Positions 43,355 to 46,628 of a stretch of DNA of 64,000 bases are shown piece after piece (the first letter of the stretch is position 1; each line of letters starts with the position of its first letter). The stretch comes from Actinomyces oris (GTDB lineage Bacteria; Actinomycetota; Actinomycetes; Actinomycetales; Actinomycetaceae): contig NZ_VICC01000006.1 in NCBI RefSeq assembly GCF_006546825.1, forward strand, positions 186,001 through 250,000, in the 5' to 3' direction. The position numbers and the translations under genes are program-made. The notes under the pieces were generated by a model. The model saw only the letters and a list, made by a program, of their open reading frames with translations, was not told where the DNA came from and ran no database searches.

Positions 43355-44938
43355 CTACAACCGGCCCAGGACGCAGGCGAAACCCCGACTGCCCGCGGCC
43401 CACTCCTCATCATTGGGACCGAGCGTGTTGATCGTGTAGCTGGTGGACAGGTCGAGTCCATAGCGCTCTGCGTAGGCGCTGGTGCAGGCGGCCTCGACCT
43501 GAGGGTCATTCGCCATGGCCTCGGTGGCGCTGGAAGCAGTCGTGGCCGGATCGAAGGTTCCGCCGGCGAAGACGATCCAGTCGGCCTGGGAGCAGGCGAC
43601 CTGGCTGACGCTCGTGCCGCCCACAACCGAGGTCGTCCGGCTCAGGCAGGTCCCCAGAGGCCACGGCATGTCGTCGGAGTAGGGGATGCCCTGGGCGTTG
43701 ACCTGCGCGGGAGTCGGGGCGGCTGTCGGGGAGGGCGAGGCCTTCCGGGAGCCGGGGACGGTTGCCCGGGCCGTAGCCGAGGGGCGGCTGCCGGCGCCCT
43801 GCTCCGCTCGGGCCCCGGCATGTAGGACGGGCGAGGCAGAGGCCCGCTGGGCTGCCCGGTTCGCTGACGGCACCGAGTCGATGAGCCTGACGGCTCCCAG
43901 CACAGCGGCGGAGATGACGACGCCGGCTGTCACCCCCAGTGCCAGGAGCATCAGTGCTCTGCTCGAGCGGCGCGATCCGGCTGTGGGCGTCGAGATCGCC
44001 GCAGGCAGGGGGTGGGAATCCCGTAGCGCCGAGTGAGGGGTGCTGAACGCGCCGTTCGAGAGCCCGCCGGCCCGAGTCAGTGCTTCGGTCAGCTCGTTGC
44101 CGTCGCGGTATCGCTGAGCGGGGTCGGGGTGCAGTGCCCGGTCGAGCAGCGGACGTAACGCCTCGGGGATGCGCGTGTCGGAGGTGTCGATGGGCACTGA
44201 CAGCCGGTTGATGATCTCCGGCAGGCTCTGGGGGGCGCCGTCGGCTGTGCGTCGAGGCCCGCGTCCGGTCAGGAGCGCGAAGAGAACGGCCCCCATCGAC
44301 CACACGTCGCCCCTGGGTGAGGGCGCGGCCAAGGTGAAGGCCTCCGGGGGAGCGAAGTCCGGCGTCATCGTCTCCAGGGTGACGGAGGAGTCGATGCCCT
44401 CGCGCTGGACGGCGGCCAGGCCGAAGTCGCTCAGACGCGGGCTTCCATAAGCGTCAATGAGGATGTTTCCGGGCTTGATGTCGCGGTGGAGGACCCCGGC
44501 GTCGTGAGCGGCGCCCAGGGCGGAGCACACGGCCGTGACGATGCTGACGGCCTGGGCGGCGCTGATCTCGCCGCGCTGCAGGACCTGGGCCAAGGAGCCC
44601 CCGTCACAGCGTTCCATGACCAGGTAGGGGCGCCCGTCGGGAAGCACTCCGGAGTCGATCAGCGAGACCGCGTTCGGGTGCCCGCTGATCCGGCTGGCGG
44701 CCGCCATCTCCCGCATGAAACGTCGGCGGTTGCGCTCGTCGTGCAGCGGCCTGGAGTCGATCTTGACAGCCACTGGGCGCCCCAACGAGACCTGCTCCCC
44801 GGCGTAGACGGTGGCGAATCCTCCCTGACCCAGCACCTGTCCCAGACGGACACCGGGCACAGGCGGTGCAACGTGCCCAGAAGCACCGGAAACAGGGAGG
44901 GGACTGCTCATGGGCACATGATCGTTGCGCGTGCGCAT
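43355..44938 (-). CDS. Membrane Ser/Thr protein kinase with extracytoplasmic Septum_form-like domain
   Basis: A 527-residue PknB-like kinase. The kinase domain spans about 30-290: GQGGFATVYAG (P-loop), VAVKI (Lys), LHRDIKPGNILID (catalytic loop), LSDFGLAAV (DFG) and PEAFTLAAPSPRGDVWS. A Ser/Pro-rich juxtamembrane region, one membrane helix (about 332-352) and an outer domain follow. The outer domain has GTCLSRT, VSQVACSQADW, VEAACTSAY and EEWAAGSRGFACVL, a Cys/Trp pattern that resembles the septum-formation (Septum_form) domain rather than PASTA repeats. The start may be ATG 44938 or ATG 44911; neither has a clear ribosome binding site. Confidence 0.88.
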   Translation of the reverse strand: MRTRNDHVPMSSPLPVSGASGHVAPPVPGVRLGQVLGQGGFATVYAGEQVSLGRPVAVKIDSRPLHDERNRRRFMREMAAASRISGHPNAVSLIDSGVLPDGRPYLVMERCDGGSLAQVLQRGEISAAQAVSIVTAVCSALGAAHDAGVLHRDIKPGNILIDAYGSPRLSDFGLAAVQREGIDSSVTLETMTPDFAPPEAFTLAAPSPRGDVWSMGAVLFALLTGRGPRRTADGAPQSLPEIINRLSVPIDTSDTRIPEALRPLLDRALHPDPAQRYRDGNELTEALTRAGGLSNGAFSTPHSALRDSHPLPAAISTPTAGSRRSSRALMLLALGVTAGVVISAAVLGAVRLIDSVPSANRAAQRASASPVLHAGARAEQGAGSRPSATARATVPGSRKASPSPTAAPTPAQVNAQGIPYSDDMPWPLGTCLSRTTSVVGGTSVSQVACSQADWIVFAGGTFDPATTASSATEAMANDPQVEAACTSAYAERYGLDLSTSYTINTLGPNDEEWAAGSRGFACVLGRL

Positions 44939-45034
44939 CGGTGCAAACCCGCCATTCCCTGAGCCTCATCGTCCAGGGGACAGCCCGCTGACCGTCTGCG
45001 TCGGGCGCCGCCGGCTACAGCGTTGCCGCAAACC

Positions 45035-45080
45035 GTGAGGGCCTCCTGCCGACATACGTCATTCGGCAGAAGGCCCTCAC
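45035..45080 (-). terminator. Terminator of the smtB-like operon
   Basis: A 17-base arm (45035-45051) pairs with 45064-45080 with one mismatch around a 12-base loop. It lies 54 bases downstream of the Cys-rich protein stop on the minus strand and is the likely terminator of that operon. Confidence 0.75.
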
Positions 45081-45133
45081 AGGGGCGCACCTCCTGAAGG
45101 CGGAGCCCGTCCAGGGGTGACTGACTGAGTCGC

Positions 45134-45457
45134 TCAGGCGGCGTGCGTGCAGGTCGGGCAGGTGCAGTCCTCGCAGGTGCACGAGGAGCAGGAGTCCGAG
45201 CAGTGCTCGCACGAGCAGGTGTTGTGGTTGCAGGTGGGGCAGGTGCAGTCCTCGCACTCGCACACGGCGCAGGGGTCCGAGCAGTGCTCGCACGAGCAGG
45301 TGTCGCACTCGTCGTAGTGGCCGTTGTCCTCGTGGTGGGCGTGGCCGTTGTGAATGTAGTCCACGTGGTCTCCGTGGATGACGGCCAGGTGCCCGCAGTC
45401 GGGGCCGTGGGTGTGCTGGTGGGCCTCAGCGGGGCGGTGCTCAGTGGTGGCAGTCAT
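45134..45457 (-). CDS. Metallothionein-like Cys/His-rich protein with two tandem repeats
   Basis: A 107-residue protein with 20 Cys and 16 His and no hydrophobic segment. Residues 7-50 are His-rich (HQHTHGPDCGH, HGDHVDYIHNGHAHH). Residues 54-76 and 81-103 are two near-identical repeats, CSCEHCSDxC then CxCEDCTCPTC, with nine Cys each and a His just after (78 and 105). At DNA level the repeat unit is 81 bp; TCCGAGCAGTGCTCGCACGA recurs at 45195 and 45276. Such a protein must bind soft metals, probably Zn, Cd, Cu or Ag. The ATG at 45457 follows AAGGAG by 7 bases and lies inside the end of the SmtB-like repressor gene (17-base overlap), so translation is coupled. Family resemblance to known metallothioneins is by composition only. 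Confidence 0.85.
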   Translation of the reverse strand: MTATTEHRPAEAHQHTHGPDCGHLAVIHGDHVDYIHNGHAHHEDNGHYDECDTCSCEHCSDPCAVCECEDCTCPTCNHNTCSCEHCSDSCSSCTCEDCTCPTCTHAA

Positions 45458-45770
45458 GATCGTGCTCCTTCGTGTGCTCGAGGGTATCGATGAAGATGGA
45501 TGCGACATGGTCGTCAATGAGGGAGTAGCTCTGGCGCTTGCCGTCGCGGACCGACTCGACCAGGTGGGCGTTGCGCAGGACCCGCAGGTGGTGCGAGACC
45601 AGGGGCTGGGAGACGCCGAGGAACGTCACCAGCTCGGTGACGTCAGCCGGTGAGCTGATGAGGCGGTAGACGATGCTCGCCCTCATGGGGTGAGCCAGCG
45701 CCTTGAACAGCTGCACCACGGCCCAGTCCTCCCCAAGGGGGGCCTCCGGTGGTGTCGCGACCTTTCGCAT
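45441..45770 (-). CDS. ArsR/SmtB-family metal-sensing repressor
   Basis: A 109-residue winged-helix repressor. It contains FKALAHPMRASIVYRL, the recognition helix GVSQPLVSHHLRVLRNAHLV and the wing DGKRQSYSL. The last helix has Asp86, His88, His99 and Glu102, which reproduces the spacing of the alpha-5 zinc ligands of SmtB (D-x-H, 10 residues, H-x-x-E). A His/Cys tail (HDHDCHH) follows. There is no CVC motif for the alpha-3N site. It should therefore be a Zn (or Co) sensor that releases DNA on metal binding. The gene is co-transcribed with the metallothionein-like protein, matching the smtB-smtA logic of Synechococcus in one operon. Confidence 0.92.
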   Translation of the reverse strand: MRKVATPPEAPLGEDWAVVQLFKALAHPMRASIVYRLISSPADVTELVTFLGVSQPLVSHHLRVLRNAHLVESVRDGKRQSYSLIDDHVASIFIDTLEHTKEHDHDCHH

Positions 45771-45777
45771 ACAAGGG

Positions 45778-45805
45778 ATTTTATATCAACTCGCCTTGAT
45801 GTCAA
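45778..45805 (-). promoter_or_regulatory. Promoter/operator of the smtB-like operon
   Basis: On the minus strand TTGACA (45805-45800), 16 bases, then TAAAAT (45783-45778), then 7 bases to the ATG at 45770: a near-consensus promoter with a leaderless start. The spacer contains ATCAA-N6-TTGAT (45785-45800), an inverted repeat exactly where an ArsR/SmtB repressor would block RNA polymerase. Confidence 0.7.
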
Positions 45806-45841
45806 AGCGTTCTTCCGCGGAGTGCGTTCGTGCGGCTCATG

Positions 45842-45847
45842 TAGCAT
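45842..45847 (+). promoter_or_regulatory. Predicted -10 TAGCAT, leaderless phosphodiesterase gene
   Basis: TAGCAT is followed by 7 bases and the ATG at 45855. No ribosome binding site is present. Confidence 0.5.
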
Positions 45848-45854
45848 TCCGGCC

Positions 45855-46628
45855 ATGTCATCGGTGACCTCAGACAGTGGTGGGTGCGTACGCGGAGACG
45901 AGCGCATGATCTTCGGGCACCGGGGCCTGAGCTCGCTCGCCCCGGAGAACACCATGGCCGCTTTCCGTTGTGCAGTGGATCATCAGGTGAAGTGGGTGGA
46001 GGCCGACGTCGACGTCATCGCCGACGGAACAGTCATCATCTGCCACGACTCCACCCTGGACCGGACCACGAATCGCACTGGTCGGTACGACGACCTGACG
46101 GCGGCCGATCTGGCGGGCATCGACGCCGGAGGCTGGTTCTCCCCTCGGTTTGTGGGTGAGCCGCTGCCCGCCCTGAGCGATCTCATCGACCTCATGAACG
46201 ACAGTGGTCTCAACGCCAACATCGAGATCAAGCCCAACGAGACCGGCAAGGAGGCGACCTTGCGCCTCATCGACGGCGTCATCACACAGCTCGAGCGCCT
46301 GCGCCCCGACGTCAAGGTCATCGTCTCCTCCTTCAGTCACCTCCTGCTCCACCTGTTCAAGCAGCGCGCCCCGGAGGTCCCCGTGGGGTGTCTCTACGAG
46401 AGTCGTGCGCTGTCGGGTGACTGGAGGAGCACCCTTGAGATCGTGGGCGCCGACTTCATCCACCCCGAGGACTCCGGCCTGACCCGGCAGCAGGTCCAGG
46501 AGTTTCGGGATGCGGGCTACGGCGTCAACATCTGGACCGTCAACTCGCCCAGCCGAGCCGACGAGCTCTTCAGCTGGGGGGCCACCGGCGTCTTCTCCGA
46601 CGTCGCCCACCAGATCCCTGGTTGCTGA
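45855..46628 (+). CDS. Glycerophosphodiester phosphodiesterase
   Basis: Hydrolyses glycerophosphodiesters from phospholipid turnover to glycerol 3-phosphate and an alcohol. The 257-residue TIM-barrel protein has FGHRGLSSLAPENTMAAF, then EADVDVIADGTVIICHDSTL (the two His and acidic metal ligands) and NIEIKPNE, and ends with VNIWTVNSPSRADELFSWG. No signal peptide, so cytoplasmic. The ATG at 45855 is taken because the -10 lies 7 bases upstream; in-frame codons to 45690 run through the divergent arsR promoter. Confidence 0.92.
   Translation: MSSVTSDSGGCVRGDERMIFGHRGLSSLAPENTMAAFRCAVDHQVKWVEADVDVIADGTVIICHDSTLDRTTNRTGRYDDLTAADLAGIDAGGWFSPRFVGEPLPALSDLIDLMNDSGLNANIEIKPNETGKEATLRLIDGVITQLERLRPDVKVIVSSFSHLLLHLFKQRAPEVPVGCLYESRALSGDWRSTLEIVGADFIHPEDSGLTRQQVQEFRDAGYGVNIWTVNSPSRADELFSWGATGVFSDVAHQIPGC

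Follow-up and report, generated by a model that had tools for sequence, protein, structure and literature searches.

A predicted SmtB-type repressor and metallothionein operon in Actinomyces oris, and a likely exchange of its zinc control among related genomes

On the minus strand of the window (the whole stretch of 64,000 nucleotides from Actinomyces oris that was analysed), two overlapping genes probably form a zinc-buffering operon, in which an SmtB-type, Zn(II)-sensing repressor is paired with a predicted metallothionein. We put the probability of this reading at about 0.83. The two genes share the 17 nt at 45441-45457, and the parts of the locus are as follows.

45441..45770, minus strand: ArsR/SmtB-family repressor, 109 aa, winged helix (PF01022, NF033788, solved relatives, ligand alignment)
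45134..45457, minus strand: predicted metallothionein, 107 aa, 20 Cys and 16 His (family alignment, dN/dS)
45308..45457, minus strand: His-rich N-terminal module, residues 1-50 (protein matches, domain scans)
45218..45298, minus strand: Cys repeat 1, residues 54-80, nine Cys and one conserved His (repeat comparison)
45137..45217, minus strand: Cys repeat 2, residues 81-107, nine Cys and one conserved His (repeat comparison)
45800..45805, minus strand: -35 element TTGACA (promoter scan)
45778..45783, minus strand: -10 element TAAAAT, 7 nt 5' of the repressor ATG (promoter scan, Actinomyces comparison)
45785..45800, minus strand: predicted operator ATCAA-N6-TTGAT, between the -35 and -10 elements and touching both (pattern search, Actinomyces comparison)
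45465..45470, minus strand: AAGGAG, predicted ribosome-binding site of the metallothionein gene (upstream-sequence comparison)

Much of this layout had been proposed in an initial annotation, which described a 109-residue ArsR protein with Asp86-x-His88 and His99-x-x-Glu102, a 17-base overlap with the gene for a 107-residue protein of 20 Cys and 16 His, and two 27-residue repeats of nine Cys each. All of these hold, and the two Cys outside the repeats are Cys21 and Cys51. The metallothionein protein is 100% identical to its counterpart in A. oris P6N. An upstream TTG start, which would lengthen it to 127 aa, is disfavoured: the ATG has AAGGAG 7 nt 5' to it, and relatives begin at the ATG. A mobile resistance gene is not supported either: four of 72,556 plasmid records match the protein partly and none does so over 80% of it. 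The neighbouring genes encode a serine/threonine kinase with a weak C-terminal Septum_form match (43355-44938) and a GDPD phosphodiesterase (45690-46628), neither of which is constant next to the operon among relatives.

In the mechanism that we propose, as long as zinc is not in excess, a repressor dimer would occupy ATCAA-N6-TTGAT at the probably leaderless promoter of its own operon. Excess zinc would fill the alpha-5 site and the repressor would leave the operator, allowing a leaderless message to be made that yields the repressor and, by coupling, the metallothionein. The two nine-Cys domains would then bind zinc in clusters, and the His module would perhaps exchange the metal more loosely. 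As zinc falls, repression would be restored.

The repressor scored above the cut-offs of PF01022 (46.9 bits; cut-off 22) and of the metalloregulator model NF033788 (85.8 bits; cut-off 55), and below those of the NCBIfam equivalogs BigR (53.9/155 bits), CmtR (47.5/150 bits) and TsoR (48.7/115 bits). By sequence, its best solved relatives are M. smegmatis SmtB (8qkf, E = 1.2e-16), NmtR in second place and Synechococcus SmtB, with CadC also among them. A fold search with the AlphaFold model of the repressor (pLDDT 85) returned M. smegmatis SmtB at rank 1, together with Synechococcus SmtB and S. aureus CzrA. The alpha-5 zinc site is predicted to consist of Asp86/His88 and His99'/Glu102'; the D-x-H and H-x2-E ligands are kept in 22 of the 23 aligned repressor sequences, including that of the window, and the remaining sequence (L034) stops short of the site. 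In the latter, from Rothia aeria (L034:3661-3942), the repressor frame is truncated ahead of the metal site, either by natural loss or by a sequence error. The C-terminal tail, HTKEHDHDCHH, contains the only Cys of the protein (Cys107), and HDHDCHH-like tails occur in the repressors of Actinomycetaceae and at two propionibacterial loci (L020, L035). The protein thus has what is expected of an ArsR/SmtB repressor, namely a winged-helix domain over the cut-off, an alpha-5 site, and an inverted-repeat candidate operator at the promoter. In a scan with defence-system models the repressor was the sole match, chiefly through its HTH part.

A near-consensus promoter, TTGACA-16-TAAAAT, with ATCAA-N6-TTGAT inside it, had also been noted, and both elements were recovered. 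The promoter carries 11 of the 12 consensus bases and is the sole promoter-like site in 44800-46000, where shuffles gave 0.1 expected; the palindrome, at 45785-45800, occurs once in the 64 kb, against an expectation of 0.01. In the whole genome the longer pattern TATCAA-N6-TTGATA has no second match at up to one mismatch, and the repressor therefore probably serves only its own two-gene unit. At two mismatches there are five further places in the genome, which makes six in all, and a reversed control pattern has a similar total of seven. Of the 23 repressor-bearing Actinomyces genomes, 14, with 13 different upstream sequences, carry the exact ATCAA-N6-TTGAT at an identical position; these were selected by that very pattern, and in them the preceding C and the following ATAAA are also invariant, and the spacer and flanks are variable. 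In the other nine the exact palindrome is missing and what is left is its TTGATATAA half, in some as a variant, and in the denticolens group this half, or a variant of it, is all that remains. The recurrence of the palindrome at the promoter points to an operon that is probably autoregulated by its repressor.

The sequence ATATAA is found 10 nt 5' of the chosen repressor ATG in 23/23 repressor-bearing Actinomyces genomes, where the choice of start favoured those that had TATAA or TATAT no more than 20 nt away, and this short distance predicts a leaderless repressor transcript. The metallothionein ATG, on the other side of the overlap, has AAGGAG 7 nt 5' to it. The same bases are the repressor codons Lys101-Glu102, and Glu102 is an alpha-5 ligand, so that the ribosome-binding site of the metallothionein gene would be encoded within the metal-ligand region of the sensor. 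AAGGAG stands at that place in 19 of the 23 Actinomyces genomes, with a one-base variant in three (G029, G030 and G033) and AGAGAA in one (G019). From this arrangement we infer translational coupling from the repressor to the metallothionein.

The 107-residue protein, with its 20 Cys, is a predicted metallothionein if the term is used broadly for small proteins with many CxC/CxxC motifs and conserved Cys. All 20 Cys columns are invariant in a family alignment of 51 sequences; in L062, which is one of the best 80 of 416 loci and lies outside that alignment, Phe replaces one Cys. The metallothionein frame is under purifying selection, with dN/dS values of 0.07-0.57 in the 27 usable comparisons with the window (30 Actinomyces sequences, of which two were identical and one saturated). 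Its AlphaFold model has no confident fold (pLDDT 59) and was left out of the fold search. The protein had been called new-looking, and the database searches uphold this in part: the window's metallothionein matched no Pfam or NCBIfam model, 0 of the 51 family members matched any of these models at E 0.01, and a PDB search returned three matches at E 10, none of them a metallothionein. The family is, however, widespread in actinobacteria, and predicted actinobacterial metallothioneins have been in print since 2010.

Relatives are encoded in 416 genome stretches, some of which perhaps share the N-terminal module alone. The locus set used below is the best 80 of these 416; it was found with patterns from the N-terminal module and is thus biased to full-length relatives. 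The hosts include Actinomyces, Cutibacterium, Mobiluncus, Trueperella, Rothia, Nocardioides, Pseudonocardia, Lentzea, Streptomyces and others, and 34 of 49 Actinomyces genomes carry the metallothionein. In an even draw across the phylum the full-length protein is rare: 28 of 396 genomes match, two of them over the full length (one being the window's genome), one as far as residue 93 with stops, and 25 in the N-terminal part only. Where the close relatives listed are named by a source, the name is nearly always 'hypothetical' or 'uncharacterized', and we found no description of the family in open-access literature text. By these comparisons the Cys-rich protein family is an old one, spread through the actinobacteria and without a name in Pfam or NCBIfam.

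The His-rich N-terminal module has a wider distribution (P0028, P0032 and P0033 are examples): it forms tails of ABC-3 permeases and is repeated in tandem in other small proteins. Two His-rich modules and no Cys repeats are also present in proteins of 114-117 aa (P0074, P0078, P0083, P0087, P0117), some of which come from Leptospiraceae and Bryobacter; a Pfam scan of P0074 and P0078 gave nothing over the cut-off.

The 81-bp DNA repeat had been taken as a sign of recent amplification, an idea that the family comparison contradicts. Two Cys repeats are present in all 80 of the best 80 of 416 loci. When the 59 loci in which both repeats have 25 residues were compared (21 loci were dropped), the nearest repeat in another genome was the one at the same position in 109 of 114 DNA comparisons and 108 of 112 protein comparisons, with 4 and 6 ties, respectively, excluded. 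On this evidence the repeat was duplicated before these genera arose. The window's two copies are 84% identical, which requires at most some homogenisation, of the kind hinted at by L011 (0.96) and L020 (0.93). One-repeat forms of 72-82 aa make up 6 of 31 matches in metagenome assemblies and occur in other lineages, for instance an Austwickia MAG (P0063), and the 34 metallothionein-bearing Actinomyces genomes yielded none; the Actinomyces-like ones may be real variants or assembly collapse. Two metagenomic sequences join an ArsR domain and the metallothionein in one frame, with two repeats (P0042) or one (P0052); they may be real fusions of sensor and buffer or products of misassembly. Fusion as a rule was rejected, since none was found among 396 genomes of the order.

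A repressor orthologue (E <= 3e-44) is present in 23 of the 49 Actinomyces genomes and adjoins the metallothionein gene in 23/23, and none was found in the 15 Actinomyces genomes that have no metallothionein. In 36 of the best 80 of 416 loci, the gene immediately upstream, in the same orientation, is of the SmtB type. Together with the solved relatives, the kept ligands and the recurring palindrome, this linkage supports the proposal, already made in the initial annotation, that an SmtB-type repressor and a metallothionein act as one unit in an actinobacterium.

The sequence profile alone cannot assign a metal to the repressor, and the assignment to zinc comes from context. Both smtB and zur are present in 16 of the best 80 of 416 loci (the gene families were checked on one example, L027), and in 13 of these 16 the smtB-zur pair lies downstream, about 0.9-2 kb away from the metallothionein gene. 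The loci with smtB-zur beside the metallothionein gene (L027, L030, L032, L040, L043-L045, L048, L049, L053, L054, L058, L082) are mostly from Pseudonocardiales, and in three actinobacterial MAGs (L064, L065, L070) smtB, metallothionein and zur follow one another on one strand. This placement beside or inside smtB-zur clusters makes zinc the likely metal of the operon. The window's genome has two CDF-family genes and one Fur-family gene (C6:531683), the latter 3 kb from a Zur-like box at the start of znuA (C6:528667); of its seven Zur-like sites at up to one mismatch, none is at the operon.

The control of the metallothionein gene seems to differ within Actinomyces. Eleven of the 34 metallothionein-bearing genomes have no repressor orthologue, although G025 and G043 among them show weak matches to the ArsR family at other places in the genome. 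In the 11, the gene is flanked as it is around the window's operon, with a YrdC gene upstream in 11/11 and an AspRS gene downstream in 10 of the 11 stretches. The best Zur-box score in the 300 nt upstream was 9-12 of 12 in all 11 repressor-less genomes versus 6-8 in all 23 repressor-bearing ones, with a threshold of 9/12 that was fixed after inspection. The Zur-box-like sites are at L010, L012, L013, L014, L016, L017 and L169-L173; the motif was first seen in six genomes, and five later ones (G012, G025, G026, G043, G047) carry the box too. Shuffles of six upstream regions attained the observed score in 2, 0, 2, 18, 3 and 0 of 200 trials. Genome-wide at up to one mismatch, this is the only Zur-like match in G002 and one of four in G009, and G013 has a single match elsewhere. 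A search for Fur-family genes in 12 genomes found one in each. The repressor-less state requires two changes on the best YrdC tree, and at least one, so that the 11 genomes are not independent.

These boxes suggest that SmtB control has been exchanged for Zur control, the metallothionein gene of the repressor-less Actinomyces probably standing at the same locus under Zur. In nine of the 11, the arrangement is proximal box, 3 nt, TTGNNN, 18 nt, TANNNT, with constant spacing and with the box outside the core promoter. In Streptomyces coelicolor, zitB is activated by Zur through a box that ends 8 nt short of the -35 element on its upstream side (passages of PMC5472717). The boxes here are sited much like that of zitB, and we infer that Zur would more likely be an activator than a repressor. 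A zinc metallothionein family with switchable control at one locus, either by a dedicated SmtB, a ligand codon of which is part of a ribosome-binding site, or by Zur activation in excess zinc, is a tentative reading, to which we give slightly less than an even chance. If it is true, the metallothionein is a Zur-activated gene. The locus is a natural experiment with one gene in one place under probably two types of zinc control, in which SmtB release and Zur activation could be compared for equal output; it would also offer a compact zinc buffer that carries its own sensor.

The same boxes could be read in another way, if Zur represses in the ArsR-less genomes. They would then imply induction in starvation, and the protein might be a zinc reserve and not a detoxifier, stored in plenty and released in starvation, or under Zur a scavenger or chaperone made in starvation. 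The ABC-3 permeases that share the His-rich module belong to a family including zinc importers, and the two CDF-family genes are already available for disposal. However, the SmtB arrangement predicts induction by zinc excess, and the proximal box, 3 nt upstream of a -35-like element in 9/11 genomes, resembles the activating Zur box of zitB (as that box is described in excerpts of PMC5472717). We consider a reserve function unlikely.

It is improbable, to our mind, that the same device handles another metal, serving to detoxify Cd/Pb, Ni/Co or Cu while the metallothionein soaks up that metal. Alpha-5 sites of such layout in some ArsR-family proteins answer to Co, Cd or Ni, and the repressor's solved relatives include NmtR, a Ni/Co sensor, and CadC, a Cd/Pb/Zn sensor; its HDHDCHH tail could supply extra ligands. 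MymT of M. tuberculosis is a copper metallothionein (parts of PMC7387436 and PMC10612145). Against this stand the metallothionein genes beside or inside smtB-zur in relatives, the Zur-like boxes ahead of the gene in ArsR-less Actinomyces and the His-rich module common to ABC-3 permease tails, all of which argue for zinc.

It is very improbable that the Cys-rich protein, instead of storing metal, assists the sensor or acts as a redox/sulfide protein: BigR/SqrR-type ArsR proteins, which sense sulfur species, have the same fold, and the metagenomic fusions P0042 and P0052 exist, but SqrR uses a Cys pair and the present repressor has a single Cys (Cys107) and conserved Zn ligands, and no fusion turned up among 396 genomes of the order.

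As a predicted zinc-buffering operon, the locus pairs an SmtB-type repressor with a metallothionein, which is in itself a known device. Synechococcus smtA-smtB has the same pairing of parts and the same alpha-5 ligand spacing, and its SmtB is among the best solved matches of the repressor, whereas the operator sequences of the two systems differ. In Synechococcus, smtB is divergent from smtA (passages of PMC7387436), whereas the genes of the window are co-directional and overlap by 17 nt. SmtA has 56 residues (a portion of PMC12193353); the window's metallothionein is about twice as long and has no detectable similarity to known metallothionein models or solved chains, those of the SmtA/BmtA type included.

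The mycobacterial smtB-zur operon is similar in that the closest solved repressor is M. smegmatis SmtB and the metallothionein of the window's relatives is in or beside smtB-zur. In the M. smegmatis study, the exporter gene zitA is reported to be regulated by SmtB, the word metallothionein is absent from the main text, and the holders of the smtB-zur operon named in a passage of the abstract are only Mycobacterium, Nocardia, Saccharothrix and C. diphtheriae (PMC7174638). Unlike in the mycobacterial operon, the single Fur-family gene of the window's genome lies away from the operon. MymT of M. tuberculosis, also an actinobacterial metallothionein, is about half the length of the window's. It is described as a copper metallothionein with a motif absent from other bacterial ones (PMC10612145 and PMC7387436, in part). 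Actinobacterial metallothioneins and 'metallohistins' have been predicted in silico (Schmidt et al., 2010, J Basic Microbiol 50:562, as listed among the references of PMC4531530), and, judged by the title alone, these candidates are alike in being predicted metal proteins of the same phylum. Characterised bacterial metallothioneins are few, coming from cyanobacteria, Pseudomonas, Mycobacterium and a few others (passages of PMC10612145, PMC7387436 and PMC12193353). New here are the unnamed metallothionein family and the likely exchange of SmtB for Zur, of which the latter is the most interesting addition.

Further promoter motifs were seen at other loci. Outside Actinomyces, Zur-box-like sites (11, 10 and 10 of 12) stand ahead of the repressor gene at L019, L020 and L035, where control may be double. 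A TGCGCATATGAGCAT-like promoter motif was seen by eye at loci of Lentzea, Kutzneria, Allokutzneria, Crossiella and Pseudonocardia (e.g. L036, L052, L081), just upstream of a metallothionein gene that has no repressor directly upstream; it is possibly a site for an SmtB encoded elsewhere. Finally, a Zur-box-like site in G000 (C8:97181, locus L168) lies near frames that, by eye, resemble spare ribosomal proteins.
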